From Saccharospirillum sp. (GTDB lineage: Bacteria; Pseudomonadota; Gammaproteobacteria; Pseudomonadales; Natronospirillaceae), in assembly GCA_018402545.1 (NCBI GenBank), contig JAGYIL010000001.1, forward strand, positions 372,001-436,000: a stretch of 64,000 bases of DNA. Direction: 5' to 3'. The notes beneath the pieces were generated by a model. That model had not been told where the DNA came from. It saw nothing but the letters and a program-made list of their open reading frames with translations, and made no database searches. Positions 27,302 through 45,755 of the stretch are shown piece by piece. The stretch's first letter is position 1; the number at the start of each line of letters is the position of its first letter. Both the position numbers and the translations under genes were made by a program.

Positions 27302-27327
27302 CCTGGAGGCTCCCTCGCTGGCTGACG

Positions 27328-27723
27328 TTATCGCCCGGGGAGCGAAACGGTCATGGTTTCACCGCCATAGCCGTGCGCCTGATCGCGCCCCTGAACGACC
27401 ACCCGGGTAATGCCGGGCGTGATGGATACGCCTGACAGGCTTCGGGTGAACGGCTGTTCGCTGGCGTGGTCGTGCAGCAATTCCCGTACCCCCAGGGTGT
27501 CTCCCTCCTCGGACATCACTCTGAACGCGTCAGCGTATCGCTGTGGCGTGTCGTAGGGGGATGACAGCGTCACCTGGAAGGTGAAGCGGTCGTCGCCCGT
27601 GGCACTGACACTGACGTCGATCACATCCGGGTAACGCTGCTCGGTATCTGTTTCGCCAAACGCCAGACTTGCCGCAAGCAAGGTCACCAGGGCAGTGAAC
27701 CCCACCATCAGAACAGGTTTCAT
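27328..27723 (-). CDS. Hypothetical secreted protein
   Basis: The 131-residue protein has a signal peptide (MKPVLMVGFTALVTLLAASLAFG). The mature part is predicted as a small beta-sandwich: alternating strands such as DVSVSATGDDRFTFQVTLSS and VVVQGRDQAHGYGGETMTVS, without Cys. I do not recognise the family by name. It sits 32 bp downstream of the epimerase-like gene and may be co-transcribed with it. Confidence 0.65.
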   Translation of the reverse strand: MKPVLMVGFTALVTLLAASLAFGETDTEQRYPDVIDVSVSATGDDRFTFQVTLSSPYDTPQRYADAFRVMSEEGDTLGVRELLHDHASEQPFTRSLSGVSITPGITRVVVQGRDQAHGYGGETMTVSLPGR

Positions 27724-27755
27724 AACACCCTCTCTTTTACCGTTCTCGTGCCGGG

Positions 27756-28835
27756 TTAACCACCGGCTTTGCGAATCTGACCGGTTTCCAGCAACTGATT
27801 GAAAAAATCGGTGATCGAGTCACGCAGCGGCCGGTATTGCACGCCCAGTTCACGCTCACTCTTGCTGTGATCAAAGCGGATTGGGTGCCCCACGTTGCGA
27901 CTGACCATGGCACGAGTCATGGCTTTATCCGCCAGTGGCCCTACCAGCCAGACCAGCGGTTTGGGCAGAATGCGCTTCGGGAAGCCGTACCCTTCGCCAA
28001 ATTCTTTGCGCAGAATCTCGGCGAACTCGATAAAACTGCTGTCGTGACCGGAGACAATGTAGCGGCCTTTGGCATGCGGCATGAAGGCGGCTTTGATGTG
28101 CGCATCGGCCACTTCACGCACATCGACAGCCGCGATGTAGAAGGCAGGAACGCCCGCCTTGAGTCGACCACTGGCAAATTGTTTGAACATGCCGAGCGAA
28201 GCCGAAGTACTGCGCGGGTTGATGCCCGGCCCCAGCACCAGGGAGGGATTAATGGTTACCAGATCCCAGCGCGACTGTTTTTCCACGGCCTCCCAGGCGG
28301 CCTGTTCGGCCAGGGTCTTGGAGTAGGAATACGGCTGGTGGGTCAGCGACGATGTCCGGTTCCAGTCGGTTTCATCCAGAGCCGGCTTGCCGGAGGTTTC
28401 CAGATCGATGTTGTCGCCATAGATGGCCGCGCAGCTGCTGGTCAGTACCACGCGTTTGACGCTTTCGGTGTTATTCACACTGTCGAGCACATTCAGGGTG
28501 CCCTGGCGGGCCGGTTCGATCAGGTCTTTCTGCGCATCGTCGAACGACAAAATAAACGGAGAGGCGGTATGGAACACGACTGAACAGCCGGCCATGGCGT
28601 CGGAATAGGAGCCCGGGTCGAGCAGATCGGCTTTGAACAGTTTCAGCGCGCCCGGAGCATTCTGTTCCAGTTGCTTGAGGTGTGCGACCTTGTCGGCGTT
28701 GTCCGGGTCGCGCACGGCGGCGTGCACGGTGACGCCGGCGTCGAGCAGGTTTTTCACAATCCAGCCGGCGACGTAGCCGGTGGCGCCGGTCACCAGTACG
28801 GACTGATTCGGGTCTATCGTTAATGCGTCGGTCAT
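27756..28835 (-). CDS. Extended SDR: NAD-dependent epimerase/dihydroflavonol-reductase-like aldehyde reductase
   Basis: The 359-residue extended SDR has the nucleotide motif VTGATGYVAGWIVKNLL near its N-terminus, a Ser in LTSSCAAIYGD and a Tyr-x-x-x-Lys in QPYSYSKTLAEQ. VFHTASPF is typical of dihydroflavonol-4-reductase-like aldehyde and ketone reductases. It likely reduces a carbonyl compound with NADPH. It shares orientation with the flavin-dependent oxidoreductase gene 44 bp upstream, which may be in the same operon. Confidence 0.87.
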   Translation of the reverse strand: MTDALTIDPNQSVLVTGATGYVAGWIVKNLLDAGVTVHAAVRDPDNADKVAHLKQLEQNAPGALKLFKADLLDPGSYSDAMAGCSVVFHTASPFILSFDDAQKDLIEPARQGTLNVLDSVNNTESVKRVVLTSSCAAIYGDNIDLETSGKPALDETDWNRTSSLTHQPYSYSKTLAEQAAWEAVEKQSRWDLVTINPSLVLGPGINPRSTSASLGMFKQFASGRLKAGVPAFYIAAVDVREVADAHIKAAFMPHAKGRYIVSGHDSSFIEFAEILRKEFGEGYGFPKRILPKPLVWLVGPLADKAMTRAMVSRNVGHPIRFDHSKSERELGVQYRPLRDSITDFFNQLLETGQIRKAGG

Positions 28836-28879
28836 AGAATGGGTTCCTGATACATTGTTGGGAGAATAGGGGCCAGTGG

Positions 28880-29899
28880 TTATACGGCCACCTGGCTGGC
28901 GGCGATGGCTCGCATAGCATCGGCCGCTATGTCGAACGATTTGAACCGGGCCTTGTCGTCGAACATCTGGCCGGTGAAGATGATTTCGTCGACATCGGTC
29001 CGGTCGATAAAGCGCCGCAACCAGGCTACCACCTGGCCGGGTGTGCCTACGGCCGATTCAGCCAGAGCGTGATCCACCTGGGCGCGCTCAATCGGGCTGC
29101 CAACCTGGTCCGGCTCGACCGGGGGTTTCAATGGGCCCGGTGTGCCGCGACGCAGCGCCATGAACTGCTGTTCCACCGAAGTTTTCAGCACCCGGGCCTG
29201 ATGCTCGGTATCGGCCGCAAACACATTCACGGCTGCCATGGCGTACGGAGCGTCCAGATAGTCGGATGGCTTGAAGCGTTCGCGGTAAATGGCCAGGGCC
29301 TGATCGAGATGGTCGGGCGCAAAGTGTGAGGCGAACGCAAACGGCAGGCCGAGTGCGGCGGCAAGCTGGGCACTGTAGAGGCTGGAGCCGAGCAACCAGA
29401 CTGGCACTCTTAATCCAGCACCAGGCACGGCCTGCACCGTCTGGCCAGGCTGTACCGGTTCAAAGTAGTGCAACAGTTCCTGCACATCGTCCGGAAAGGT
29501 ATCGGCCGCGTTCATTGGGTTACGGCGCAGAGCCCGCATGGTGGCGCCATCGGTGCCGGGCGCGCGGCCGAGGCCAAGGTCCACCCGGTCTGGGTAGAGG
29601 GCGGCCAGGGTGCCGAACTGTTCAGCGATGGTCAGTGGTGCGTGATTGGGCAGCATGACACCACCGGCGCCGATGCGGATACGCTCAGTACCTTCGGCGA
29701 CAAAGCCGAGCGCTACCGCCGTCGCGGCGCTGGCGATGCCGGGCATGTTGTGATGTTCGGCCATCCAGAACCGGGTGTAACCGGCTTTTTCGGCGTGCTG
29801 CGCCAGGGCCCTGGAGCGATGCAAGGCCTCTCGGGCGGTACTGCCCTGATTGACGGGGGATAAATCGAGTATCGAAAAGGCGGTCACTGTGATCTCCAT
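28880..29899 (-). CDS. LLM-class flavin-dependent oxidoreductase (luciferase-like)
   Basis: The 339-residue TIM-barrel flavoprotein matches the luciferase-like monooxygenase family: [19 protein letters not shown] at the N-terminus, [19 protein letters not shown] and [20 protein letters not shown]. The group includes alkanal and FMNH2-dependent oxidases of unknown substrate (YhbW-like). It lies just downstream of the direct repeat that bounds the unknown ten-gene block, and is followed by the aldehyde-reductase-like SDR, a plausible partner. Confidence 0.88.
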
Positions 29900-29930
29900 G
29901 AGCGAATTCAGTGAATGATGCCCACAACAT

Positions 29931-29961
29931 GAGGGGCATCCCGCCAGTCACAAGGTGTCGA
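29931..29961. repeat. 31-bp direct repeat, left copy, bounding the ten-gene block
   Basis: This 31-bp sequence (beginning GAGGGGCATCCCGCCAGTCA) matches 39594-39624 at 28 of 31 positions in the same orientation. It lies 3 bp past the stop of the last gene of the block. It may be a site-specific or target-site duplication; no recombinase gene is present between the copies. Confidence 0.7.
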
Positions 29962-29964
29962 TAG

Positions 29965-30645
29965 TCACGGTGCCAGTGTAAGCAGGATCTCATCTCCGGC
30001 ACGGGCAATGCTGTCGGGGCTTGGATCCTGGCTGGCGATCAGCGAGTCGTCACTGGCGTCTGTGTCGTCCGCAGCCAGCGCAACCCTCAAGCCCAGTTGT
30101 TCGAGCACGGCGCGGGCAGCAGCGAGGCTGCGTGGGTTCCCGTCCCGGTCGGTTACCAGATTCGGCACCAGGCGCAGTTCATCGACACCGTCTGGTGGCG
30201 GGATGGGCACTATGCGAAAGGTCAGCTTGGCACTGACGTCGGCACTGAATCCGTACTGGTTGGTGTAACCGGCATCGACCGGTGAGGCGTAGAGCTTCCG
30301 GCTGGTGTTCAGTCCCTGTCGCCCAAGCGCCGCGCGAACCGCCGGCACCGGTGTTTTCTTAACCGCGGTCGCCTGTGACGCGCCGGCCGCCCCCTGCCCC
30401 AGGCGCAAGGCCACCCGAACTTCACCGGTCGTTTCCGGCAGGGCGTAGAAGGTGGGCCGGTAGCCGATGTCCTGCAATAGCTTCATTTTGGCGTCATTAT
30501 TCTCGGCGTACAGCTCGAGCACGGCGGCCAGCGATCCGTCATCGAGTGCCTGTTGCGCGCTTGCGACGCCTTCGCCGACCGAGGCAATGACATCGCCCAG
30601 TGGCGAGGCCACTACATCTTGTACCAGTGAGCGCAAATTTTTCAT
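29965..30645 (-). CDS. Unknown-cluster paralog with C-terminal PASTA domain
   Basis: This 226-residue protein is one of six paralogs in the block. The helix block GDVIASVGEGVASAQQALDD (residues 18-37) and the strand block LQDIGYRPTFYALPETTGEV (57-76) align with the other members. The third block (about 134-150) reads SADVSAKLTFRIVPIPPP. Residues 160-226 look like a PASTA domain (VPNLVTDRDGNPRSLAAARA, then LEQLGLRVAL). PASTA domains normally bind peptidoglycan fragments on kinases or penicillin-binding proteins, but no signal peptide or membrane segment is seen. It is the last gene in transcription order, separated from the others by repeat A1. Function unknown. Confidence 0.75.
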   Translation of the reverse strand: MKNLRSLVQDVVASPLGDVIASVGEGVASAQQALDDGSLAAVLELYAENNDAKMKLLQDIGYRPTFYALPETTGEVRVALRLGQGAAGASQATAVKKTPVPAVRAALGRQGLNTSRKLYASPVDAGYTNQYGFSADVSAKLTFRIVPIPPPDGVDELRLVPNLVTDRDGNPRSLAAARAVLEQLGLRVALAADDTDASDDSLIASQDPSPDSIARAGDEILLTLAP

Positions 30646-30675
30646 GGACGTGCTCCTGTTGTTAATGACTCGAGT

Positions 30676-30849
30676 TTCGGAGTTCGCGGTTGGTTACGTT
30701 GCCAGTCGCCCGCACCGGCCACCAGGTAGGGCTATCGAGGGTCGGCGTAAACCCGTCCATGGGGCCTGGACCGCAGCATCCTTGCTGCGGACCACCCTCG
30801 ATAGCCCTACCTGGCACCCGGTGCTAGTCCTTTGCCTGCGAACTCCGAA
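30676..30849. repeat. Family A palindromic repeat, copy 1
   Basis: A 174-bp element lies between the last two genes of the unknown block. Outer ends TTCGGAGTTCGC and GCGAACTCCGAA are inverted. Inside is a 21-bp perfect stem (30722-30742 and 30794-30814), and at the tip GTCGGCGTAAA, TCCATGG and the small hairpin CCGCAGCATCCTTGCTGCGG. A second copy with different stem arms but the same tip is at 56135-56301. Confidence 0.8.
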
Positions 30850-30875
30850 GCACCGGAAAGGCCCGTGTATCAGGA

Positions 30876-32075
30876 TCATTTCGGCGCAGCCTCTTGTTTG
30901 CGTTCGCCAAACACCACCATGACCGAGCTGCCGTGTTCCGCTTCGCTGCTGGGGGCCGGGTGTTGGCTGAGTGCCTGGCCGGGCACGCCCGCGCCCTCGG
31001 CAAGTTGCTGGTGGGCGCTGGCCATGCGCAACCCGACTGATCGCAATACCCGGCGTGCGGCACTTTCCGTCAGGCCGATGACGTCCGGGACCGACGTTCT
31101 GGTTGCGCCTGTATCGGACGATTCACTGATCAGCTCGGTGCTGAAGCCGCCACCGGCTTCGCCCATTACGATGGAACTCCCGTCGTCCGACATTGATCCG
31201 CGCAGATCGATTTTCACGTTACCCAGCCGGTAAGGCAGCGCCTCGGCTTTCATGCGGGTATTGGAGCTGCTTACCTTGGAGCCCAGACCTACCAGCACGG
31301 TTTCAATCGCGGCCGGTTGGCGGGTGTTGGATTCCAGTTGTTTGACTTTTGCAGCCAGCGCTTCCTTTTCGGTCGCGGTTTGCGACAAGTTGGTTTCCAA
31401 CGTGTTGATGCGGCTTTTGGCGGTTGAGAGTTGTTCGTTGGTCAGCGTAAATTCCCGGCTTTTATCCAGCAATTGGGCGTTCAGCTGCACTTCGCGGGCT
31501 TTGAGCGTATCCAGTTCTTTGGTGTTCAGCAGGGTGGCGGTGATGGCCGGGTCCAGCTTCGCTTCGGTGGCTTCTAGCTGTGGGCGTGCCCGTTCTCCCG
31601 CCACATCGACCCGGGTCAGATTGGCGGTCAGCGTCGGGTTGGCCATTACCAGGCGGTTGACGGCCAGCGTTGAAATCTGTGGCGCAACCGGTGCCCCGGC
31701 CACTGACTCGTTGGTGCGGGCAAAGCGAGGGTCGACGTGTTGCAACCGGTGTGCGGTTTCTTCGAGACGTTCGATTTTGCCAAAATCGAGAAACAGGGTT
31801 TGCTGACGGGTGTCATATTGCATCAGCCCGCCGTGAGCCAGGACGCGCGGCGCCGGTGAACCGGTTTCAGTCAGGCGCATTGCCGGAGCCATGGTCTCAC
31901 TGACAACGGTGGCGGCGCTGGTTAACGTGGCTTTGCCTTCGGCGTCGGTTTTGCCTCTGGCAACGGGCTGCCAGCGACGGCTTTTCAACTGGTAGGCTTC
32001 CAGACTCAGGGTATGGCCTTCGGCGACTTTGCCTTCGTCGGTCAGCAGGTGAACGGTGGCGACGACTTTGCCCAT
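30876..32075 (-). CDS. Unknown-cluster coiled-coil protein with PASTA domain
   Basis: The 399-residue protein has an N-terminal beta domain (residues 2-58, VATVHLLTDEGKVAEGHTLS) resembling Ig-like or carboxypeptidase-regulatory folds. A linker follows, then a coiled coil (about 185-250, LNTKELDTLKAREVQLNAQL), a short beta region (275-318, LPYRLGNVKIDLRGSMSDD), and a PASTA domain (328-390, SVPDVIGLTESAARRVLRSV). No signal peptide or membrane segment is present. Its ATG overlaps the TGA of the upstream gene. Together with the other PASTA protein it suggests a PASTA-binding partner within the block; function is unknown. Confidence 0.7.
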   Translation of the reverse strand: MGKVVATVHLLTDEGKVAEGHTLSLEAYQLKSRRWQPVARGKTDAEGKATLTSAATVVSETMAPAMRLTETGSPAPRVLAHGGLMQYDTRQQTLFLDFGKIERLEETAHRLQHVDPRFARTNESVAGAPVAPQISTLAVNRLVMANPTLTANLTRVDVAGERARPQLEATEAKLDPAITATLLNTKELDTLKAREVQLNAQLLDKSREFTLTNEQLSTAKSRINTLETNLSQTATEKEALAAKVKQLESNTRQPAAIETVLVGLGSKVSSSNTRMKAEALPYRLGNVKIDLRGSMSDDGSSIVMGEAGGGFSTELISESSDTGATRTSVPDVIGLTESAARRVLRSVGLRMASAHQQLAEGAGVPGQALSQHPAPSSEAEHGSSVMVVFGERKQEAAPK

Positions 32076-32716
32076 CAGCTCACCTCCTTGCCAATGACCA
32101 GGCGCAGGGTTTCAAAGCCAAGCTCTGCGACCAGAACCACCCTGGCGGCGGTTTGCAGGGCACCGCCGAGTTGCACTTCAGTGACCGCCACGCCCGACTC
32201 ATCGGTTTGCACCACCGCACTGCTTAGCGACACCGCCGTTAGCCGGGGTGAGCTGACACCAGCGGCTTTGGACAAACCGATTGAGGCTTCGCGGTCGAGG
32301 TTCAGTTCAATGTCGGCACCGGTCAGCACTTCGCCAGCGCTGGTGGTGGCCGTAAAGGTCAGGGTGCGTCGGTTACCCGTTGCAGTGATGTCGGCGGCCA
32401 GTTGCGGGACCGGCATCCCTTCGCCTGGGGGCACGGCCACAAACCGGCCGGTAATGCGGCTGGTCACTTCCTTGGACGCTTCGCCACTGCTAACCGGGGC
32501 AAAAATAAGTCGGACGCCGCCGCTGGATTTGGTTTCTGACTTGAGTTGAAAGCCCACTTCGAAATCCAGGTGCGGAATGCGGTATTGGGGGGCGGGCCGT
32601 CCGTAACCGTCGAGCGGCGCAATGCTGTTCAGTTCTTCCTGGGCTTCGCGCAGACTTTCGGCAATGCCGACCAGAACGCTTTCCAGCGTGTCCGCAATGA
32701 ATTTTCCTTCGCTCAT
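32075..32716 (-). CDS. Unknown-cluster paralog with C-terminal Ig-like domain
   Basis: The 213-residue paralog starts with the helix LESVLVGIAESLREAQEELN (11-30). The strand block is shorter than in its relatives (YRIPHLDFEVGFQLKS, 45-60), and the third block is EVTSRITGRFVAVPPGEG (83-100). Residues 105-210 are rich in alternating strands (TLTFTATTSAGEVLTGADIE) and look like an Ig-like fold with Big-like character. No signal peptide or metal site is seen. It shares a 1-bp overlap with the gene after it, so they are co-translated. Function unknown. Confidence 0.7.
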   Translation of the reverse strand: MSEGKFIADTLESVLVGIAESLREAQEELNSIAPLDGYGRPAPQYRIPHLDFEVGFQLKSETKSSGGVRLIFAPVSSGEASKEVTSRITGRFVAVPPGEGMPVPQLAADITATGNRRTLTFTATTSAGEVLTGADIELNLDREASIGLSKAAGVSSPRLTAVSLSSAVVQTDESGVAVTEVQLGGALQTAARVVLVAELGFETLRLVIGKEVS

Positions 32717-32784
32717 TCAACTACCTCGTTTAATGCCCGTTGCTTGAACGGCTGTTGCCTGTCTGTAATGAAAAGCAGGGCGTA

Positions 32785-33774
32785 TCAGACACTGTCCTGT
32801 TCCCGTGATCGTTCGCGCTGTTTGGCCAGCGCCCGCTCCCGGCGCTGCTGATCGCGTTGTTCCGCCTGTTGTTGTTCGCGCCGTCGCTCCAGAGCGCGTT
32901 GCCGGTTCGCCTGCATGCGGGCGAACAGGTCTCCGGAGCCGCCGCTGTCGAGCGACAGGCGCTGTTCGCGACGATCGGCGTAGCTGGAAAACCGGTCCAT
33001 GGCGCCAGTCAGGCGTTGTTCACGGGCTTGCCAGCCGGATTCGATGCGATCGACAACCTGCTTCGGTGCATCGAGTGCCGACTGGGCGCGGTTCAACACT
33101 GAGCTGGTTTTGTCGAGCCGGTCACCCTGTAGCGTATTGCGCAGCTCGGCCCGTTCTGCTTCGGATACCCCTTCGCTGGCCAGTTGCTGGTCGAGATCGC
33201 GCAGTTGATCGCGAGCGCCGTCGACTGACTGCCGGGCGTCTCGTACCGGCTGGCTGACCGATTGCAGTGGCGTCAGTGCGTCGCCAACGCGACGCAAGCC
33301 AGAGCGAGCCTGACGGCTGGCCGTGGCAAAGCGATTGTCCGGCCCCTCGCTCAGGCCACTGCGGCCCGGCAGCCCGGCATCCATACGGCCTTCGAGTGGC
33401 GACGCAGGAAGACTGCCGCGAGGCGTACCTATCGGCGCAAGGTCACTACTCTGCCGTTGCCGGGCGGCAGCCCGTTGTGCAGCCCATTCCTGCTCCTGCC
33501 GGCGCCGTTCGGCGAAGCTGGCCACCGGAAAACGCTGGCTGATGGCCGGGTCCTGTTGCGGATCACCGGTCAGGCCGCGCAGTTTCGATTCCAGTTCATT
33601 GCGCCGGGTCAGAAGCTGGTTGAGCTGGCTGTTCGGCGCCAGCCGGGCGGCCTCGGCCAGATCCGCTGCCCCACGATTGCCTGTTACTGCAGCAGAGGCT
33701 GGTAAAGGCCCAGCGGACGATGTTGAGCGCCCGTTTGAGTCCTGATCCAGGTCACGCCAGGTCCTTCGGGTCAT
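32785..33774 (-). CDS. Unknown-cluster Arg/Gln-rich coiled-coil protein
   Basis: This 329-residue protein has no family name that I can give. It is strongly charged and rich in Arg, Gln and Ala. A flexible N-terminal part (residues 1-160) is followed by helical segments (about 165-250, QSVDGARDQLRDLDQQLASE) and a C-terminal helix of Arg/Gln/Glu (285-329, MQANRQRALERRREQQQAEQ). It does not carry the three paralog blocks. Its ATG lies 4 bp after the upstream stop. A scaffold or nucleic-acid/peptide-binding role would fit the composition, but this is inference. Confidence 0.65.
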   Translation of the reverse strand: MTRRTWRDLDQDSNGRSTSSAGPLPASAAVTGNRGAADLAEAARLAPNSQLNQLLTRRNELESKLRGLTGDPQQDPAISQRFPVASFAERRRQEQEWAAQRAAARQRQSSDLAPIGTPRGSLPASPLEGRMDAGLPGRSGLSEGPDNRFATASRQARSGLRRVGDALTPLQSVSQPVRDARQSVDGARDQLRDLDQQLASEGVSEAERAELRNTLQGDRLDKTSSVLNRAQSALDAPKQVVDRIESGWQAREQRLTGAMDRFSSYADRREQRLSLDSGGSGDLFARMQANRQRALERRREQQQAEQRDQQRRERALAKQRERSREQDSV

Positions 33775-33777
33775 GGT

Positions 33778-34344
33778 TTACTCATCGTCGGCGTCGGTCA
33801 GGGTGCTGGCAATCATTGAGCGGATGCGCTCTTCCAATATTGCCGGGGCCGGTACCGGTACCAGCTTGGTGCGCATCAGCGAGGAGCCCTCTGCCGAGTA
33901 CTGATATTTGGAGGAATAACTGGCCGACACTGAACTGACGCTCATTTTGGCGGAGGCCGAAAAGAACCCGACCTTGCCGCTGACCGAGGCATTCACATTG
34001 GTGGATGAGCGTTTGAAGTTGGTCTCCCGCGACATCGAAATCGACAGTTTCAGTTCGATCAGAGTGTCGACAAACTGATAGAAAGTGGGCACGAAGCCGA
34101 GCTCTAGCAGGGAGTACTCATTGCCATCGCCCAGCTTCACCAGCATGTTGCGTTCCGGTGGTGTGGTTGGCGTGGGGGCCGGTTCACCGTCTTCGGGTTC
34201 CGGGTCGGGCGCATAGCCGGCCATCATCCGGGCGATCTTGAGTGATACCAGATCGAGTTCATACTGGGCTTCTGCGATGCCTATCCCGAGCGTTCGAACC
34301 ATCTCGGGGAAGGGCGTGTTTTGCATTTCTGTGCCAATGGACAT
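33778..34344 (-). CDS. Unknown-cluster paralog, core form
   Basis: The 188-residue paralog is one of the clearest members. Block 1 is EMVRTLGIGIAEAQYELDLV (14-33). An acidic Pro-rich linker (47-63) follows. Block 2 is LLELGFVPTFYQFVDTLIEL (79-98). A Ser-rich beta segment (105-142) leads to block 3, YSAEGSSLMRTKLVPVPAPA (149-168), and an ending helix EERIRSMIAS. It is very close to the 267-residue neighbour, consistent with a recent duplication. No signal peptide is present. Function unknown. Confidence 0.75.
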   Translation of the reverse strand: MSIGTEMQNTPFPEMVRTLGIGIAEAQYELDLVSLKIARMMAGYAPDPEPEDGEPAPTPTTPPERNMLVKLGDGNEYSLLELGFVPTFYQFVDTLIELKLSISMSRETNFKRSSTNVNASVSGKVGFFSASAKMSVSSVSASYSSKYQYSAEGSSLMRTKLVPVPAPAILEERIRSMIASTLTDADDE

Positions 34345-34387
34345 GGGTTAGCCCTCCGCCTGTCGGCCGCAAAAAACGTGCGGGAAT

Positions 34388-35191
34388 TTATGCATCGTCG
34401 TCAGTGTCCAGACCCAGGTCACGGCGCCGGACTTCCAGGTTAGCTTCGCGCCGTGCTTCTTCGGATTCCATGAAAGAACGAATGCGATCTTCCAGTACGG
34501 TCGGTGGCGGCACGGGAACGATCTTGGTACGTAAAATGGATGCACCTTCGGCGGTGTAGGAATATTTACTGGAATAAGTGGCATCGACCTGGCTGGTGGT
34601 GACCTTGCTTTCTGAGCCTGATGATTTGGAAGTGCCCCAGAACGACCGTTTGCGCTTGTAAGCATTGGCCCGGTCTGTGGTTTTGTTGCTGCGGGTATGA
34701 GTGTACTCGCGTTCACGGGTAATCTTGATCGCGATCTTGACTTCGATAATAGTGTCGACGAATTGATAGAAGGTGGGTACAAAGCCGAGTTCCATCATCG
34801 AATGTCGAACGGGTACCCGAATCTCGAGTTTTTTCTGGTCGGCATTCAGGCTGGCCACATCATCAACATCGTGCAGGTCTTTGGCGATCTTTTTGACCAG
34901 ATCAAGCAGTTTGACGGCCTCGTTCTCGTCTAACGAGCCTGAAACGGCATCATCAACGGTGGCATAGGCCACAGCCTCGGCCAGGGTCATGTATTCGTAG
35001 CCAAAAAAGACCCGGCTGTCGTCGAAGGTGACATTGCCACGTTCGTCGTACACCGTGGTCAGACCACCCATCATTTCAGCGACGTTGATCGAGTTTTCAT
35101 CGAGCTGATACTGACCATCGGCGATGGCAAAGGCCATTTGCCGGATCATATCGCCCATGGGTACATTCAGCAGTTCTTGTCCAATTGCCAT
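34388..35191 (-). CDS. Unknown-cluster paralog, long-linker form
   Basis: The 267-residue paralog carries block 1 DMIRQMAFAIADGQYQLDEN (14-33), then an inserted acidic helical part (about 85-120, LDENEAVKLLDLVKKIAKDL) not found in the sister. Block 2 is MMELGFVPTFYQFVDTIIEV (132-151) and block 3 is YTAEGASILRTKIVPVPPPT (212-231), with RTKxVPVPxP shared with the 188-residue sister. A Lys/Arg-rich stretch (NAYKRKRSFWGTSK) lies between them. It is probably the closest relative of that sister and duplicated from it. Function unknown. Confidence 0.75.
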   Translation of the reverse strand: MAIGQELLNVPMGDMIRQMAFAIADGQYQLDENSINVAEMMGGLTTVYDERGNVTFDDSRVFFGYEYMTLAEAVAYATVDDAVSGSLDENEAVKLLDLVKKIAKDLHDVDDVASLNADQKKLEIRVPVRHSMMELGFVPTFYQFVDTIIEVKIAIKITREREYTHTRSNKTTDRANAYKRKRSFWGTSKSSGSESKVTTSQVDATYSSKYSYTAEGASILRTKIVPVPPPTVLEDRIRSFMESEEARREANLEVRRRDLGLDTDDDA

Positions 35192-35229
35192 TGCCGCTCT
35201 CCTCTGGCTGACTGTTCAGTTCCGGTTGG

Positions 35230-35694
35230 TCAGATCTCTTGCTGGTATTGTTGTTTCAGTAACAATAAAAACGTTTCCGGCGCGGGCAACGACACCAGCC
35301 GCGCCGCGATGGATGACATGCCTTCGGCCGATACCGAGAACTTTCGGGCATAGCCCACATCCACCGACGCCGCTGCCATGAAGACGCCGTATTGAACGCC
35401 CACCTGCACCCCGACATTCACCGAGGTTTCGGTGCTTTCCGTCATGCTGAAGCTGAGCTTGGCTTCCACCGTCGCCTCGGTAAATGCATAAAAGCTGGGC
35501 ACAAACCCGAGCGATAACAGGTTGTAGGTGGTGTCGCCAATTTCGACTTCCGACTCGGCCAGCGACTGCGCAATCTCGATCGAGTTTTTATCGAGTGCCA
35601 GTTGCGCCTGGGCAATGGCGACCCCCAGCTTTTCAATAATTTGCGGCAGCGGGGCCGACATTAACGAGCGAGTAACCGCCGGTACCTCACTCAT
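35230..35694 (-). CDS. Unknown-cluster paralog, minimal form
   Basis: At 154 residues this is the smallest paralog and helps define the core domain. Block 1 is QIIEKLGVAIAQAQLALDKN (18-37), block 2 is LLSLGFVPSFYAFTEATVEA (59-78), and block 3 is VSAEGMSSIAARLVSLPAPE (120-139), ending in a helix LLLLKQQYQQ. A smooth beta segment lies between (TETSVNVGVQVGVQYGVFM). There is no appended domain. The core is therefore an amphipathic helix plus beta-sandwich-like strands of about 140 residues. Confidence 0.75.
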   Translation of the reverse strand: MSEVPAVTRSLMSAPLPQIIEKLGVAIAQAQLALDKNSIEIAQSLAESEVEIGDTTYNLLSLGFVPSFYAFTEATVEAKLSFSMTESTETSVNVGVQVGVQYGVFMAAASVDVGYARKFSVSAEGMSSIAARLVSLPAPETFLLLLKQQYQQEI

Positions 35695-35728
35695 GATGAA
35701 TGCTCCTCGGTCGTTGCTTCATGGCCGT

Positions 35729-37519
35729 TCAATCGTTCTGTGCCAGAAAGGTTTTTATGGTTTCCAGAAACTCCGGTGGCGCGGGAATGGAGACCAGCCG
35801 CGCCGAAATGGAAGAGTTGCCGGTGACGTTCATTTCAAACTGACGTGAGAAACGTACATCCAGTGATGCGCCAACCGCCACGGTGCGATTGCCGGTGTTT
35901 TGCCGCGTAAGACTCGACGACTCGGTGCGCGTGAACTGCCGGGTTACGGTGACACCCTCGGTTCCGCTGATTTGTATCGAGCGTTCTTCAGACGACACCA
36001 GGGTCAGCCGGAACGGTGCGCTCTTGCCAAACACCGTCACCACATTGGCCTCGGCGGAGGCACTGAAATCGACACTGGCGTTGGCGTTAATGTCGTTTTT
36101 CAGGTTCTCGGCATAGGCTGACGGGCTGCCCGCCGCATGGCCTGCGGCTGAAGCGCCGGAGAAGGGGAAATCGGTCCCCTCAATGGTGACTTTCTTGCCA
36201 GACAGAGACAGCGGTTGAGGCCGGTACAACCAGGCGAACCCATTGCCGCTGGTACCGGGCGTGGTTTTATCCGGTGTGACGCTTTCGATTGTCAGGCCTG
36301 AGTTGGGCGAGCGCACCAGCAGGTAGTAGACCGAGCGGTTTTTAATGCGAATTTCTGCTTTGCGAAAATTTACGTTGTCAGGCGTACCACCGGCAGTGAG
36401 GGCGTCGGCAGAGCCCCGGGAAGCCTTTCGGGTAACCTTGTTGGCTGGCAGACCCTGACCCACCAGAATCCGGATGATCTCATCCGCCCGGCGGTTGCCC
36501 AGATCAATGTTGCTCTGGTCGGAACTGGAAGAAGATTGGTTGCGATAGGGTTGGGCGTCGGCAAAGCCTTCGACTTCCAGGTCAAAATTATGATCCTTTG
36601 CGAACTGGGCCAGATAGCCGAGGCTTTGAATCATGTCGTCGTTATAGGTAGTGCCATCAATGCTGAAGGTTTCCAGGTGGTGCTTGCCTGTTTTGAAATG
36701 GGTGGTGGTGATTGGGACAGTAGGCGCATAGAGCGTTGCGGTGTAACCCGCTCCTTCCACTTCGGTTTTCACATGGTCGGCGTATGCCTGCAGTGACCCC
36801 TGAGCGGTGGTGTTTACGGTGGTACTGCCATTGAACTCATAATCGGTAGCGCTGTTGGCATCGATCTGAATCACGCAGCGGTCGAAGCCGCCGCCCTTGA
36901 ACGCGACGGTGCGGTCGGTGGTGGCAACTTTTTCGGGTTCGGCATCGGTGCTGATGGCGAAGCTACGGTCAGGGTGTTCGTACAACAGGCGCGGTACACC
37001 AGCCTGGGCATCGGACGTCACGGCCTCCTGCAGTGCGCGGATGCGTGCCAGAGGGTCATCACCGCTGATCTGGAATTGGCGGCCGCCCAGGGTCAGTGCG
37101 CCGGTACTGGATGATTGCACGCTGATTTCAGCGGTGCGCTCACGCGAGGCCGTGCTCGACCCGCTCTCGGTGCTTTCACTGCTTTCGGACTGGTTACTGT
37201 CGGAGGTTTGAGTGTCGCTAAAGGAACCGTTCAGGTTCAGACCTACACTCAGGTCTTTTTCGACGCGCAAGCTCAATTGCAAGGAACAGGCAATATCGGC
37301 GTGCTGGTAATGATAAAACGCCGGCGACAAACCCAGGTCGAGTAAGGTGCGACCGCCAAGCCCGTCTCTGGGGGTAATGAATTCGGCGATTTGATCAACC
37401 GAATTTTCATCCAGTGCCTGTTGCGCCTCGGCAATGGACAAGCCCAGAGTTTTAATGAATTCGGCGACACTGGCGTCTGCCAGTACCTGGCCGGGTGTGA
37501 GTCCATCGTAATCTGCCAT
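35729..37519 (-). CDS. Unknown-cluster paralog with OmpA-like domain and internal repeat modules
   Basis: The 596-residue protein has block 1 EFIKTLGLSIAEAQQALDEN (20-39) and block 2 LLDLGLSPAFYHYQHADIAC (59-78). Block 3 is at the C-terminus (MNVTGNSSISARLVSIPAPP, 563-582). Between them are a Ser-rich linker (100-130), three weakly similar beta-helix-beta modules (about 142-205, 217-275 and 440-515, the last two with AYADHV and AYAENL helices), and an OmpA/MotB-like domain (290-395, VEGFADAQPYRN and NRRADEIIRILVGQGLPANK). The domain therefore looks inserted into a paralog. No signal peptide is seen, so peptidoglycan binding is not assured. Confidence 0.75.
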   Translation of the reverse strand: MADYDGLTPGQVLADASVAEFIKTLGLSIAEAQQALDENSVDQIAEFITPRDGLGGRTLLDLGLSPAFYHYQHADIACSLQLSLRVEKDLSVGLNLNGSFSDTQTSDSNQSESSESTESGSSTASRERTAEISVQSSSTGALTLGGRQFQISGDDPLARIRALQEAVTSDAQAGVPRLLYEHPDRSFAISTDAEPEKVATTDRTVAFKGGGFDRCVIQIDANSATDYEFNGSTTVNTTAQGSLQAYADHVKTEVEGAGYTATLYAPTVPITTTHFKTGKHHLETFSIDGTTYNDDMIQSLGYLAQFAKDHNFDLEVEGFADAQPYRNQSSSSSDQSNIDLGNRRADEIIRILVGQGLPANKVTRKASRGSADALTAGGTPDNVNFRKAEIRIKNRSVYYLLVRSPNSGLTIESVTPDKTTPGTSGNGFAWLYRPQPLSLSGKKVTIEGTDFPFSGASAAGHAAGSPSAYAENLKNDINANASVDFSASAEANVVTVFGKSAPFRLTLVSSEERSIQISGTEGVTVTRQFTRTESSSLTRQNTGNRTVAVGASLDVRFSRQFEMNVTGNSSISARLVSIPAPPEFLETIKTFLAQND

Positions 37520-37560
37520 TGCCTTTCTCCTGGCCGCCTGAAGGCGGAGTCATCAGCGGT

Positions 37561-38193
37561 TTATAACAGTGAACTGCGGGTGCGGTGCGACGCCGGGCCG
37601 GCGGTCGCCGCTGCCGGTAACGGGCGTGCCCGGCGAGCGTCGACCTGGTCGGCACGAACGCTGAAATAGTGATGCTTGCGCTGAGCGTCGGTCAGGCGGG
37701 CCGGGTCCGGGTGCAGACCGCGTTGCAACCAGCCGATCACCTGTTCGGTCAGCCCCAGGGTGTTTTGCCCAGCAATCTGGCGTGCCTTTTCCAGGCTGGC
37801 AAAGGCCGCCTTGCGATCGCCGAGCTTGGCGTAGATCAGGCCCTGGCGTTCGAGGATGCTGCCGTGATCCCGGGCGTGCAGCTGGCGCTGGTTGCCCGGC
37901 TCCTGGCGAAGGGTCTGATAGTAGACATCCGCCTTTTCGCAGTAGTCCAGCACGTCCTGATAGCTGCCGGTCAGTTCCAGACTTTCCAGAACGCATTGGC
38001 TGTAGTGCCGGAAAAACACTTCGGGTGCCCGGGCCGATACGGCGAGCTTGATGGCCTCGCGATAGTGACGCAGGGCTTCATCATGGTCGCCTTTTAGTGC
38101 ACAGCATTTTCCGGCTTCAGCCACACCGAGATGGTAGGCGTGCGCGTCAGCGCTGGTTGGCTTGTCTGACTGTGTTGCCTTCGCCTGGGTCAT
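37561..38193 (-). CDS. Unknown-cluster TPR-repeat protein
   Basis: The 210-residue protein consists mostly of TPR-like helical pairs: GKCCALKGDHDEALRHYREA, then YSQCVLESLELTGSYQDVLD, then GLIYAKLGDRKAAFASLEKA. A basic, Ala/Pro-rich tail follows (175-210). TPR proteins bind peptides or assemble complexes, so this is a plausible adaptor for the block. Its ATG overlaps the stop of the preceding gene (ATGA). No signal peptide is present. Confidence 0.75.
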   Translation of the reverse strand: MTQAKATQSDKPTSADAHAYHLGVAEAGKCCALKGDHDEALRHYREAIKLAVSARAPEVFFRHYSQCVLESLELTGSYQDVLDYCEKADVYYQTLRQEPGNQRQLHARDHGSILERQGLIYAKLGDRKAAFASLEKARQIAGQNTLGLTEQVIGWLQRGLHPDPARLTDAQRKHHYFSVRADQVDARRARPLPAAATAGPASHRTRSSLL

Positions 38194-39323
38194 GAGGCTA
38201 TCTCCACCAGTTCTGCGGCTGTGCCGGTTGCCTCCAAAGCACCGCGTACCACCCGGGCCTGCAATTCAGGCAGGGCGTAGGGCAATTGGAAGGGGAGTGC
38301 AGGCAGGGTCGCTTGAGCACCGTCGAGCAAGCCCAGAGACTGCAGCGTACGCTGTAATTGCCGGGGTTCCCGTGTGTGCGTGATCTTCAGCCCCAGTGGC
38401 ATAAAACTGATCAGGTCGGCACGGACGCTGAGCCCGGCCTGTGTCAGAGCCAGCAACGTGGATTGCAGTTGCTGGTTGGGCAGTGCTTCGATCAGGGTGA
38501 TGGGGGTATTGGCAAAGAGTTTCGGGATGATGTGCTCGGGGATGCCCGCTAATTCGCCAAGGGCGGCACAGGCGTCGGCGGTGGCGCCCTGGCCGGGTTC
38601 GGTCAGCACCAGATCGTAGCGCAGAAAATCCTGATTGATCACCCGCAGGGTGTTGGCTTTCTGAAAGGCGGACCAGAGCGCATCGGCCTGGGTTTTATCG
38701 AGGTCAATCAATACGCAGCCCTGATCGGCGATGGGCTGATAACCCCGGCGACGCAGTTCCAGTCCGGTACGTTGGGCCTGCTCGGGGCTGTCTACCGTCA
38801 GAAAGACGCTGTAGCGAGCGGTTTTCGGGTTTGAGGCGATCAGTTCAATGCCATCGCCCAGACGGTCACGCAGCGCAGTTAGAGTAGCCTGGCTGACATT
38901 GCCGAGAATGATGCCGGGCGGCGAGGTGAGCAGGTGCGATGTCTCAGCGGCGGTCGTGCCCAGAAAGCGCGCGAGTTCATCGAGGATGCGGTCGTAAGCC
39001 TGAACGTCAGTGATATAAGCGGCGATATCGAAGTAGTCATGCGCAGGCGTCAGGGGCTGATCGCAGGAGTCAATCCGCGTCTCGTAGCCCAGGCTGGTCA
39101 GCAGTGATTGCATCTGTTCGGCGATGTCGAACGACACCCGGTCAACTAGAATGGAGGGCGCGCGGTAAAGGGCATTGAGTACGCTTTGAACGGAAACGCC
39201 GAGTCCGAGTGCGATGGATTTGGCGGACGCCGGTGTGGCCTTGCCAATAGAGGTGACGACCAGTCGGTAATCACCTTCAGCAGGCGGTGTTTGTGGCACA
39301 GTATTGGCTGAAGCGTCAGACAT
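38190..39323 (-). CDS. Unknown-cluster protein with five L7/L12-CTD-like repeats
   Basis: The 377-residue protein is the first gene of the block. It is built of about five repeats of the beta-alpha-alpha-beta-alpha-beta shape of the ribosomal L7/L12 C-terminal (or ClpS) fold: about 19-84 (YRLVVTSIGKATPASAKSIA), 97-164 (YFDIAAYITDVQAYDRIL), 170-230, 236-303 (YDLVLTEPGQGATADACAAL) and 306-375. Each has a helix with a Gly-Leu turn, a short strand and a second helix ending in Gly. No known enzyme motif is seen. A protein-binding scaffold role is inferred. Confidence 0.7.
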   Translation of the reverse strand: MSDASANTVPQTPPAEGDYRLVVTSIGKATPASAKSIALGLGVSVQSVLNALYRAPSILVDRVSFDIAEQMQSLLTSLGYETRIDSCDQPLTPAHDYFDIAAYITDVQAYDRILDELARFLGTTAAETSHLLTSPPGIILGNVSQATLTALRDRLGDGIELIASNPKTARYSVFLTVDSPEQAQRTGLELRRRGYQPIADQGCVLIDLDKTQADALWSAFQKANTLRVINQDFLRYDLVLTEPGQGATADACAALGELAGIPEHIIPKLFANTPITLIEALPNQQLQSTLLALTQAGLSVRADLISFMPLGLKITHTREPRQLQRTLQSLGLLDGAQATLPALPFQLPYALPELQARVVRGALEATGTAAELVEIAS

Positions 39324-39644
39324 GGGCTAACCCCGTCCCTAGCTGGTGCAATGACACCAGTGGATGTTCCTTGTCCACGCAGACAGCAACACGATACGGG
39401 ACACCCAGGTCACTTCACGATCAGATCATCGCGACAACGTAAGTGCATGAGGAAGAAAAGCAGCGTGTGGAGGGGGTGTCAAACTGACTTGATCAGTTGG
39501 CCGTTTGAAACGTCATATTTGTGTTGGATTTGTGAGCAAATACTCAATTTTACCGGCGGTAGACTCGCTACCGCTGGAGAGCAGGGGTACTTTGAGGGGT
39601 CTCCCGCCAGTTACAAGGTGTCGAATGCCTCAGGTTACCGGCGT
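39324..39644. other. Intergenic region upstream of the ten-gene block, with right direct repeat
   Basis: This 321-bp gap should hold the promoter of the ten-gene block. It has a dyad AACTGACTTGATCAGTT at 39482-39498 (6-bp arms, 5-nt spacer), about 160 bp before the first start codon, which may be an operator. The 31-bp direct repeat is at 39594-39624. I see no further gene. Confidence 0.5.
39594..39624. repeat. 31-bp direct repeat, right copy, bounding the ten-gene block
   Basis: This copy (GAGGGGTCTCCCGCCAGTTA and on) matches 29931-29961 at 28 of 31 positions in the same orientation. It lies 20 bp past the stop of mrpG. The distance between the copies is about 9.66 kb and covers just the unknown block. 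Confidence 0.7.
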
Positions 39645-39956
39645 TTAGCGTCTTGTGCCGTCTTTGTGCCACATTTTATAGCCCTTATCGAGCATAGACT
39701 TGCCCAGCATGTGGGCGGCAACAGGGGCTGTCAGCACCAGAAAAATCATGATAGCAGCCGCGCGCGACACCGAAGCCACATCCCGGAAATGCAGAGCGAC
39801 GGCGACCATCAGCAAGCCCAGACCGATGGTGCCGGCTTTGGTGCTGGCGTGCATGCGGATGTAAAGGTCCGGCATGCGCAGAATGCCCAGGCCTGCGACC
39901 GTGATGAAGAACACGCCCATCAGCATGAATAGAACCGTTAACGCTTCAAAAATCAC
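39645..39956 (-). CDS. mrpG: Mrp antiporter subunit G (second operon)
   Basis: The 103-residue small membrane protein has three hydrophobic segments. LRMPDLYIRMHASTKAGTIG and the AAAIMIFLVLTAPVAAHMLG tail are typical of MrpG/MnhG. It is a subunit of the hetero-oligomeric Na+/H+ antiporter complex and is the last gene of the seven-gene operon, overlapping the mrpF stop by 4 bp. Confidence 0.93.
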   Translation of the reverse strand: MIFEALTVLFMLMGVFFITVAGLGILRMPDLYIRMHASTKAGTIGLGLLMVAVALHFRDVASVSRAAAIMIFLVLTAPVAAHMLGKSMLDKGYKMWHKDGTRR

Positions 39957-40255
39957 AATTCGTCCTCCGAATCAACAACCTTGTCCAGTTGGCTTTTCAT
40001 GATCCAGCGTGCAAAGGCAATGGTGCCCAGAAAGGCGACCAGGGCAAGGGTGATGGCAATATCCAGAAACGCGGGCTCGTCGCTGCTAATGCTGTAGACT
40101 CCGATGAAGCCAATTGTCAGAAAGGCGATCAGGTCAAGGGCGACCACACGATCCGCCAGCGTGGGGCCTTTTACCATGCGCATCAGACAGAATACCAGGC
40201 CGAAGATCAGGCTGACGAAAGACAGGTTGGTTGCAACGCTGAGAACGCTATCCAC
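39953..40255 (-). CDS. mrpF: Mrp antiporter subunit F (second operon)
   Basis: The 100-residue subunit has three membrane segments, with RMVKGPTLADRVVALDLIAF and AFLDIAITLALVAFLGTIAF, typical of MrpF/MnhF. It overlaps mrpE by 8 bp and mrpG by 4 bp. MrpF is thought to help Na+ transport in the complex. Confidence 0.93.
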   Translation of the reverse strand: MDSVLSVATNLSFVSLIFGLVFCLMRMVKGPTLADRVVALDLIAFLTIGFIGVYSISSDEPAFLDIAITLALVAFLGTIAFARWIMKSQLDKVVDSEDEL

Positions 40256-40724
40256 GGGTCACCTCCAGCAAGCGTTTTTCCAGTCCGTTTTTCAGCTCTT
40301 CAATGACGGCTGCCTTGTCCCGCGCAAACATGGCGTGAATGATCAGGTAAGCCCGGTCTTCGCTGACATCCAGTGTCAGGGAGCCGGGTGTCATTGAAAC
40401 CATGTTGGCCAGCAGCATGATTTCCAGATCAGATTTCGCATCAAGCGGATAATAGATGATGTCGGGCTCGCTGAGGTGAGTGGGCGTCAACACGTCCCAC
40501 ACGACCTTTATGCTGGTAATGACGACTTCTTTCAGGAAGTAAATCAGTAGTTTCACGGCAGCCCACCCCTGCCGGCCATAATTCAAGGGACCGCTGGTAG
40601 CCTGAGTCAGTGACAGACAGACAAACCCGACGACAAAGCCCACGATAAAATTGAAAATGCTGAAACTGCCATTGATCAGCATCCAAGAGACGCCGAGTAC
40701 AATGTTGAGGGTTAACAGGTTCAT
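40248..40724 (-). CDS. mrpE: Mrp antiporter subunit E (second operon)
   Basis: The 158-residue subunit starts with two hydrophobic segments (LTLNIVLGVSWMLINGSFSI and on), followed by a cytoplasmic domain with IIYYPLDAKSDLEIMLLANM and SMTPGSLTLDV, the hallmark of MrpE. It joins the complex without acting as a channel itself. It overlaps mrpD by 4 bp. Confidence 0.93.
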   Translation of the reverse strand: MNLLTLNIVLGVSWMLINGSFSIFNFIVGFVVGFVCLSLTQATSGPLNYGRQGWAAVKLLIYFLKEVVITSIKVVWDVLTPTHLSEPDIIYYPLDAKSDLEIMLLANMVSMTPGSLTLDVSEDRAYLIIHAMFARDKAAVIEELKNGLEKRLLEVTRG

Positions 40725-42220
40725 CGCAGGACTCCCATGACGGTATCCACATACTGGGTGGTATCGAGCAATTGCCGTGCGGCGGTATCGGCGAATTGAT
40801 ACAGGGGCTCAACGGCCAGGCCGATGATGATCGTCATGATTGCCAGTACTACGATGGGCGTCAAATAGAGCCAGTGTTCCTTGCGGGTCAGGGGCTCGTT
40901 CGGCTGGCCATCAGGCCGGGCTTTCCAAAAAGCTTCGGACCAGATTTTCGTCATCGAGAAAATGGTCATTAACCCGACAAACAGCGCTGTGGCAGCCAGG
41001 ATGTACTGGCCGGTCTCCAGGCTGGCCCGGATGACCATGAACTTGCCCCAGAAACCCGACAAGGGTGGAAAACCGGCCAGGGAAAAGGCAGGAATGATAA
41101 ACAGAACGCCCAGCCAGGGCAGTGCCTTGTAGGTTCCCCCCAGATCGGAGAGATTGTCACTGCCATGTTTGCGTTGCAGGTAACCGCCGATCAGGAACAG
41201 GTTCGCCTTAACAATGATGTGATGGATAATGTAGAAGATACCCCCGGCAATGGCCAGTGGCGTATACAGCGCCAGCCCCATAACCATATAGCCGATCTGG
41301 CTGATGATGTGAAATGACAGAATGCGTTTGATATTGAACTGACTGGCGGCTCCCAATACCCCGGTGAGCATGGTTAAGCCGGCAATGATGATCAGGAGTG
41401 TCTGCAGCCCGGTGTTTGGCAGTGAAAAAACCAGAGTAAACACCCGCATAAGTGCATAAACGCCAACCTTGGTCAGCAGGCCGGCAAAGATGGCGACCAC
41501 CCCACTCGGCAAGGTGTGATAGGAGGCCGGTAGCCAGGCGAACACCGGAAACAGCGCCGATTTGATCGCGAAGCCAAACAGAAAGAGGCTGGCGATCAGT
41601 GTGGTCTTGCCACTGTCCAACATCGGTACTTTCAGGCTCAGATCGGCCATATTCAAGGTGCCGGTGGCGCCATGCAGCAAGCCGATGGCCAGCAGGAATA
41701 CCAGCGTGGAGACGAGGTTCAGAATAACGTACTTGACGGCCCCTTCGATCTGAACCCGGTTTGCATCGAGAATCATCAGGCCAAAAGATGAGATCAGCAT
41801 GACCTCAAACCAGACATAGAGATTGAAAATATCGCCGGTCAGAAAACTGCCGTAGACACCGACCAGCAGAATCTGGATCAAAACATGGTATAGCGGGTAG
41901 GAAGGGCGTAAAGCCAGATCTGCCGAGGCATAGGCCACGGTTGCCAGCCCGATGATGGCCGTAATCAGCACCATGGCGGCACTCAGATTATCGGCGACGA
42001 AACTGATGCCAAAGGGCGCCGGCCAATTGCCGACCGCCACGGCAACGATGCCTTCGTCCAGCACGCTCATTAACAAGGCAATGGCGGAGACCACCTGTAC
42101 CACCGCGCCCACCCAGATAACCACGAGCGACAGGGTTCGCCAGCGCATGAACAGTGCTGCGAAGGTGCCCGTACTCAGTGCCAGGATAACCGGCGCCACC
42201 AAAAGCCACTCGGTCATCAT
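40721..42220 (-). CDS. mrpD: Mrp antiporter subunit D, NuoN/NuoL-like (second operon)
   Basis: The 499-residue polytopic subunit is a complex-I-like antiporter module of about 14 membrane segments. A Glu in the mid-membrane LYVWFEVMLISSFGLMILD and a Lys in FGFAIKSALFPVFAWLPASY mark the proton path. MrpD and MrpA are the two antiporter-like subunits of the complex. It overlaps mrpC and mrpE by 4 bp. Confidence 0.94.
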   Translation of the reverse strand: MMTEWLLVAPVILALSTGTFAALFMRWRTLSLVVIWVGAVVQVVSAIALLMSVLDEGIVAVAVGNWPAPFGISFVADNLSAAMVLITAIIGLATVAYASADLALRPSYPLYHVLIQILLVGVYGSFLTGDIFNLYVWFEVMLISSFGLMILDANRVQIEGAVKYVILNLVSTLVFLLAIGLLHGATGTLNMADLSLKVPMLDSGKTTLIASLFLFGFAIKSALFPVFAWLPASYHTLPSGVVAIFAGLLTKVGVYALMRVFTLVFSLPNTGLQTLLIIIAGLTMLTGVLGAASQFNIKRILSFHIISQIGYMVMGLALYTPLAIAGGIFYIIHHIIVKANLFLIGGYLQRKHGSDNLSDLGGTYKALPWLGVLFIIPAFSLAGFPPLSGFWGKFMVIRASLETGQYILAATALFVGLMTIFSMTKIWSEAFWKARPDGQPNEPLTRKEHWLYLTPIVVLAIMTIIIGLAVEPLYQFADTAARQLLDTTQYVDTVMGVLR

Positions 42221-45199: not shown

Positions 45200-45353
45200 A
45201 ATGAATTACACACTCCTCTAGCCTGGCGGGGCCGATACTTAGCTTGCCAAAGTCAGGGCGATCAGGAGGTGTAGAATGTAACAGATTTTAACGCTGTGCA
45301 TAGCCGTTGACAGCGTTTCCCATATAAGCAGGTCGTTCCCGGTTCTGTCGTCT

Positions 45354-45743: not shown

Positions 45744-45755
45744 GTCAGGTCTCCG

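Follow-up and report, generated by a model that had tools for sequence, protein, structure and literature searches.

A ten-gene operon of Saccharospirillum sp. with seven DUF2589-like core domains and a possible role at the cell wall

Introduction

Saccharospirillum sp. (Gammaproteobacteria, Natronospirillaceae) carries an operon of ten genes on the minus strand at positions 29965-39323 of a 64,000-nucleotide stretch of contig JAGYIL010000001.1 (assembly GCA_018402545.1; positions 372,001 to 436,000), here called the window. Seven of its proteins contain related copies of one small core domain, a remote relative of the uncharacterised family DUF2589. The ten genes very likely function as a whole, since they keep one order from Saccharospirillum to Bacteroidota and most of their proteins belong to no known family. 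We tentatively propose, at somewhat less than an even chance, that they build a non-enzymatic multi-protein assembly which would be made in the cytoplasm and would act at peptidoglycan with the help of a lysin; its assembly, release and target are inferred. More doubtful is a wider reading, in which the operon would encode a new, horizontally spread, non-phage device: a hetero-oligomer of seven DUF2589-like paralogues with peptidoglycan-binding arms, which would form in the cytoplasm and be set free or put to use through interchangeable endolysins, with pairs of DUF2589 genes as its minimal relatives.

Operon organization

Ten open reading frames (ORFs) occupy the place where the original prediction, made from the letters of the window, had put ten minus-strand genes. 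They are listed below in order of transcription, each followed by its notable parts (lengths in amino acids, aa). Intergenic gaps range from -4 to 68 bp, except for 230 bp 5' of the last gene. The description of several genes as overlapping was slightly strong, as overlaps exist in just two gene pairs (4 bp and 1 bp).

38190..39323 (-): 377-aa protein, first gene, repeated ribosomal L7/L12 C-terminal-like domains (PDB profile match, and Pfam Ribosomal_L12 in aligned members)
37561..38193 (-): 210-aa TPR protein (Pfam TPR_1, E 9e-9), orthologue in 60 of 65 loci searched
35729..37519 (-): 596-aa core protein with a large OmpA-bearing insert in the variable loop (core by profile; OmpA E 7.8e-8)
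36371..36643 (-): OmpA-like domain of the 596-aa protein, residues 293-383, with D321 and R344
35230..35694 (-): 154-aa protein, the core in its minimal form (99% identity with the S. impatiens orthologue)
35347..35433 (-): variable loop (residues 88-116) within the 154-aa protein, charge-poor and alternating, low-confidence in the model
34388..35191 (-): 267-aa core protein with enlarged segments (by profile comparison)
33778..34344 (-): 188-aa core protein (97% identity with the S. impatiens orthologue)
32785..33774 (-): 329-aa basic Arg/Gln-rich protein, best family match E 0.014 across four libraries
32075..32716 (-): 213-aa protein with a core-like N-terminal part (1-105) and an Ig-like C-terminal part (106-213)
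30876..32075 (-): 399-aa protein with a weak transthyretin/Ig-like start, followed by a coiled coil, the seventh core-like domain and PASTA
31101..31343 (-): seventh core-like domain, residues 245-325 of the 399-aa protein (Trypco2 68%, 154-aa core 42%)
30909..31094 (-): PASTA domain of the 399-aa protein, E 6.7e-6, above the Pfam cut-off
29965..30645 (-): 226-aa core protein with C-terminal PASTA, last gene
29971..30129 (-): PASTA domain of the 226-aa protein, E 1e-6, above the Pfam cut-off

The nearest relative of the joined 154- and 188-aa proteins, which are the two most conserved of the operon, is S. impatiens (locus L030; 98% over 340 columns). Between the window and this locus, differences per codon in all ten genes amount to 0.36-0.54 at third positions and 0.005-0.12 at second positions; because third positions diverge so much more than second positions, all ten look like real, protein-constrained genes.

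Distribution and conserved gene order

Other copies of the operon were collected in a single pattern-based search of species genomes, with the 188-aa protein as the query. It gave 64 loci, the window not among them; distant copies may therefore be missed. By profile, all ten families stand in the canonical order and strand in 52/64 loci. Three loci (L069, L078 and L091) have an ORF rich in R, Q, E and K in the slot of the undetected Arg/Gln-rich protein, to whose 329-aa family there are profile matches in 60 of 65 loci, and seven of the 64 are cut by contig ends (L036, L045, L048, L051, L068, L079 and L083). Two of the 64 depart from the pattern: L042 has four of the families, and L085 (4789-14935 of a deltaproteobacterial bin) carries nine of them in rearranged order, with two 154-aa-type genes and no detected orthologue of the 596-aa protein. 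The conserved co-occurrence across genomes that had been named as a check is thus found for all ten families, in fixed order and in distant bacteria.

A tree of 63 rows was built from the window and from every locus except L084 and L085 (62 loci). Its rows comprise 46 from Pseudomonadota, 12 from Bacteroidota and one each from Acidobacteriota, Actinomycetota, Gemmatimonadota and Latescibacterota, the last four all from metagenome bins. One supported clade mixes Paracoccaceae rows with gammaproteobacterial rows, and this mixing of alpha- and gammaproteobacterial copies suggests, though the tree is no proof, that the operon has been transferred horizontally between lineages. It is also rare: the 188-aa protein occurs in 5 of 96 genomes (own genome counted), and a core-profile survey of 398 Pseudomonadota matched the own genome only. 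Within the genus, the 596-aa protein was matched in three of six genomes, including the own genome; one of these matches is a short OmpA-type stretch with four stops. Families outside the ten that recur in at least four loci are generic or come from close relatives, and hold no fixed place across distant loci. Taken together, the fixed order in 52/64 loci, the lack of a recurring outside family and the mixed tree mark the operon as a self-contained unit.

A search of 50,697 phage records for relatives of the 188-aa protein found none, and no viral copy was confirmed in two scans of IMG/VR. On plasmids, one divergent short cluster was found, a reduced version in Sphaerotilus sulfidivorans (L029, 13643-16419) that encodes five hypothetical proteins, of which two or more are related to the core.

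The shared core domain

We compared 12 parts of the ten proteins, DUF2589 and Trypco2 with one another by profile-profile comparison (91 pairs). The 154-aa family was matched by the 188-aa protein (100%), the core of the OmpA protein (100%), the 267-aa protein (99.9%), the core of the PASTA protein (99.7%) and the N-terminus of the Ig protein (88%). As negative controls, the TPR, repeat, Arg/Gln-rich, Ig C-terminal and coiled-coil-protein N-terminal parts all stayed at or below 0.6% against this family, and the cores reached at most 1.5% against the TPR, repeat and Arg/Gln-rich proteins. The pairs of the Ig core with the 188-aa (16%) and 267-aa (31%) proteins are weak; it joins the family through the 154-aa, OmpA and PASTA cores, which it matches at 88%, 96% and 96%. 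The six proteins predicted to share one core are thus all tied to the 154-aa family (88-100%), but the count is seven: residues 245-325 of the 399-aa protein are core-like too, at 42% with the 154-aa core and 68% with Trypco2.

The model of the 154-aa protein (73 sequences, mean predicted local distance difference test (pLDDT) 64) has a helix at 16-47, strands at 49-52 and 55-58, long strands at 67-85 and 120-137 and a last helix at 140-150. Residues 82-125 are poorly placed, and this low-confidence loop is the site of the OmpA insert in the 596-aa protein. The 213-aa protein was modelled with higher confidence (mean pLDDT 84): a helix at 3-30 and strands at 49-62, 68-71 and 82-93 are followed by a second beta domain, itself confidently modelled. 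Common to both models are a long N-terminal helix and two long strands whose connecting loop is badly placed. The Foldseek list of the 154-aa core model against the PDB opens with flagellar MS-ring chains (E at least 0.46), with beta-barrel pore chains further down, and serves as a lead only. The 213-aa model had none of 1743 PDB matches at E<=0.001 (best 0.0015), and the core sequence profile had a single, chance-level PDB match (E 1.5).

Pfam, NCBIfam, PHROGs and PADLOC hold no family for the cores or the 329-aa protein, nor for the window copy of the repeat protein, and, among the best 25 of 28 Pfam families, none is found in more than 4 of the 73 core members at E<=1. The alignment of DUF2589 (PF11655, 9 sequences) matches a mixed 154/188-aa alignment end to end, at 87% (E 3.5e-6, 146 columns). 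Against single families it reaches 87% with the 154-aa proteins and just 14% with the 188-aa proteins (37% over 33 columns in another comparison). PF11655 itself has no match in the ten window proteins or, for the 73 core members, among the best 25 of 28 families (E<=1), and its gathering cut-off was not reached. On these sequence comparisons, the relation of the core to DUF2589 is one of remote kinship and not of membership, and the suggestion that the core recalls DUF2589 was right in kind. The likeness extends to gene arrangement, since DUF2589 genes are often tandem paralogues and a run of DUF2589-related genes, AF0414-AF0417, appears in the part of a published account available to us (PMC3949148); the ten-gene context, by contrast, was seen at none of the DUF2589 clusters. 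At one of them, on the Vibrio sp. 16 plasmid pVDT1 (L145), the surroundings of the DUF2589 pair include a type I secretion-like pair and a gene whose annotation names a TcdA/TcdB-type glycosyltransferase domain.

Trypco2 (PF19631) resembles the seventh core-like domain and has weak matches in 2 of 41 Ig-protein orthologues (best E 0.0039, cut-off not reached; the window protein has none), whereas the main core reaches only 1.4% against it.

Accessory domains

In the window proteins, the two PASTA domains and the OmpA domain (33 bits against 27.2) pass the Pfam cut-off, as predicted. The predicted Ig-like domain is borne out by Big_1, which at E<=1 matches 16 of the 41 orthologues that were aligned (best 1.4e-6), but the window protein is below the cut-off (E 0.12). 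A similar division applies to the L7/L12-like repeats: the 377-aa family profile matches L7/L12 chains of the PDB (E 3.3e-6 for profile positions 4-72, and E 4e-4 for a second stretch at 224-288) and Pfam Ribosomal_L12, the L7/L12 C-terminal domain, is found in 21 of 39 aligned members at E<=1, but the window copy has no Pfam match. No enzyme domain passes the cut-off in the ten proteins (Pfam, NCBIfam).

A simple hydrophobicity scan found few membrane-helix-like windows across the ten families, and five proteins (two PASTA, three repeat proteins) with signal-peptide-like N-termini (19-residue window at or above 1.6). The predicted lack of signal peptides therefore holds as a rule.

PASTA domains bind cell-wall material. 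For the OmpA protein, 63 orthologues were found, of which the alignment contains 41; two of these are without the insert, which leaves 39 rows. Within the insert, G318 and N337 are kept in all 39 rows, L340 and R344 in 38 and D321 in 36. According to the part of a published study available to us, meso-diaminopimelic acid (mDAP) is suggested to be bound by an Asp and an Arg in OmpA-family proteins (PMC7947798); read from the motif, D321 and R344 likely are these positions.

Lysin genes beside the operon

The commonest Pfam family among 81 neighbours of the operon is PG_binding_1, in four. Profiles from five neighbour lysins, of kinds chosen after seeing the neighbours, were then compared with the ORFs of all loci. 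The comparison gave endolysin-type hydrolases in 8/64 loci, from six lineages; they are of three kinds, and all are less than 0.5 kb from the operon. TIGR02594/CHAP lysins are found in L040, L054, L077 and L088 (below cut-off in L054, E 2.6e-19, and L077, E 1.8e-10) and, by similarity only, in L093; an M15 peptidase with PG_binding_1 in L034 and, again by similarity only, in L039; and a glycosyl hydrolase 108 in L069. Four lysins are very close to the operon (L088 13 bp, L077 17, L069 17, L093 19) and the other four are 272-414 bp away, those of L040 and L054 being divergent. The nearest 1.2 kb, which add up to 140 kb, contain all eight, and the 389 kb of outer flank contain none. At E<=0.001, TIGR02594 has 5 matches in the 96 genomes, which are relatives of the window and not of all hosts; in the near flanks, 5 were observed (4 lineages) against about 0.002 expected by our own arithmetic, with the window's relatives as background.

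Lysins also occur near some DUF2589 genes, with endolysin-type genes at two or three of nine clusters. At L111, a PF11860 muramidase lies about 2 kb downstream (Pfam E 2e-66), and an automatic search of the nine loci with six lysins gave just this muramidase, itself the source of one query. Two more were picked by eye in the ORF lists of L140-L144: a glycosyl hydrolase 19 (GH19)-type endolysin 28 bp behind the DUF2589 pair of L144 (best PDB match an endolysin, E 1e-39), and a gene of L142 with a weak endolysin match (E 0.007).

The conserved OmpA residues and the lysins beside some copies suggest the cell wall as the site of action. A cytoplasmic location, as first predicted, fits the general absence of signal peptides but is, in the light of these two clues, probably incomplete. 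The lysin could be either a release tool or a payload, since a TIGR02594 protein is also a predicted type VI secretion system (T6SS) effector in the part of the source available to us (PMC13055248).

Flanking and intergenic sequence

A near-identical direct repeat of 35 bp brackets the operon, at window positions 29930-29964 and 39593-39627. Its 22-bp core has two exact copies in the genome, which are the bracketing pair, plus one with 3 mismatches, and S. impatiens (L030) has the downstream copy only. A mobile-element reading of the repeat was rejected: L030 lacks the upstream copy, and the reading is not general, since flanking repeats beat the largest control score in only 3/54 loci. Within the 230-bp gap before the last gene, an inverted repeat of 31 nt (90% complementary, spacer 51 nt, 30712-30824) could be a regulatory hairpin. 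An Rfam scan of window positions 26000-43000 gave no match, and promoter and terminator scans gave counts no higher than in shuffled sequence. Upstream of the operon, at 39645-47994, are two Mnh/Mrp-type antiporter gene groups; in S. impatiens, relatives of the second group adjoin the operon instead.

Proposed function and alternatives

In the assembly that we propose, the core proteins would form a hetero-oligomer in the cytoplasm, as a ring, tube or lattice, for which the Arg/Gln-rich, TPR and L12-like proteins may serve as scaffold or adaptors; in the original prediction, the 154-aa protein would be the repeating unit of such a complex. A lysin would then open the wall or the cell, allowing the OmpA and PASTA domains to bind peptidoglycan, and the device would act at the murein of the producer or, after lysis-type release, of a neighbour. 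Lysis cassettes are known to release large complexes that lack signal peptides, as seen in the part of the source available to us (PMC10847048). Type 10 secretion and such lysis-released complexes resemble the present case in the signal-less products and, in some lineages, the endolysins beside the operon; they differ in that here neither holin nor spanin was identified, a lysin was detected nearby at a minority of loci only and no toxin was recognised among the ten proteins. The original prediction knew of no named system with this composition, and none was found in the literature searched, which left subscription journals and preprints mostly outside.

Several observations weigh against this proposal. 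No lysin was detected near 56/64 loci, tblastn with the five lysins found none in the window, and the own genome has no TIGR02594 match; lysins of other kinds would be missed, because those five served as queries. In a count by hydrophobicity of the ORFs around seven of the eight lysins, no holin or spanin was identified; membrane proteins occur at two of these seven loci (L034 and L054). The position of D321 is Ser in 3 of 39 rows, and the divergent 596-aa orthologues of L078 and L091 (203 and 215 aa) lack the OmpA insert, which is consequently not indispensable. The OmpA and PASTA folds may also have other ligands, and the 154-aa core model had 0 of 120 Foldseek matches to the PDB at E<=0.001.

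An unlikely alternative is a structural body or polymer inside the cell, similar in principle to R-bodies, whose wall-binding folds would be mere protein-protein modules. Several paralogues of one small structural protein, the lack of enzymes and horizontal spread are the genetic make-up of R-bodies too, in the parts of two accounts available to us (PMC3583457, PMC13430693). No Reb family match was found in the ten proteins (Pfam, NCBIfam), however, nor any known polymer family (with PHROGs and PADLOC added), the wall-binding modules are extra here, and OmpA-residue conservation and lysin neighbours would be left unexplained. The charge-poor core loops might instead form a beta-hairpin barrel with a holin-like role, letting the lysin or the wall-binding domains reach the periplasm, which we consider improbable. 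This would suit a core loop that is not confidently placed in the monomer model and endolysins that adjoin some operons without an identified holin. Column-averaged loop alternation exceeds that of shuffles for the 154-aa (p 0.006), 188-aa (p 0.009), OmpA (p 0.02 and 0.04) and DUF2589-A (p 0.017) proteins, but alternation is usual in soluble sheets, the whole-hairpin maximum lies in a core strand and not in the loop, and 10% of control windows attain p 0.05 and 5% attain p 0.01. Per-sequence beta-amphipathicity is weak (median p 0.14-0.15; 0.44 for the 267-aa loop), the membrane proteins of L034 and L054 make a holin possible there, and the large OmpA insert at the hairpin tip would be hard to move across a membrane.

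A cytoplasmic conflict or stress system would have the cores as Trypco2-like adaptors, PASTA and OmpA as sensors of wall fragments and the lysin, where present, as a self-killing effector. In the parts of the sources available to us, Trypco2 is described as an adaptor of conflict systems (PMC10907252) and defined beside their trypsin-like peptidases (PMC7159879), and the Trypco2 resemblances given above and the rare, patchy distribution fit such a role. We nevertheless judge it quite unlikely. No NTPase, peptidase, TIR or other effector was found among the ten proteins, and trypsin, MoxR ATPase and vWA genes occur neither among the ten (Pfam) nor among the best 25 of 107 families for the 81 neighbours. 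A scan of these neighbours speaks against a defence island, with six PADLOC models matched by one protein each; in the ten, PADLOC matches fall in PASTA, OmpA or coiled-coil parts (PD-T4-6 1.2e-5, ZorB 2.9e-5), and the cores have none better than E 0.015. With tailocins and extracellular contractile injection systems (eCIS), the operon shares signal-less Ig-like and wall-binding domains and, near some copies, lysins, and a viral predicted protein, A0A516MP19, resembles the core model (E 2e-5), while one unverified 4-kb phage record holds a DUF2589 relative. That the operon is a degraded or minimal phage tail or tailocin is nonetheless very improbable: sheath, tube, baseplate, spike and AAA+ proteins were not recognised among the ten (Pfam, NCBIfam, PHROGs), PHROG matches are at noise level (best E 0.023, to a tape measure, in the coiled-coil protein; sheath model 0.12), and the phage and IMG/VR searches confirmed no viral copy of the 188-aa protein.

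Conclusions

The proposed wall-directed assembly predicts a structure visible by electron microscopy that binds sacculi through the OmpA protein. If the proposal is true, the operon would provide the first functional setting, that of wall engagement and lysins, for the uncharacterised DUF2589 family.

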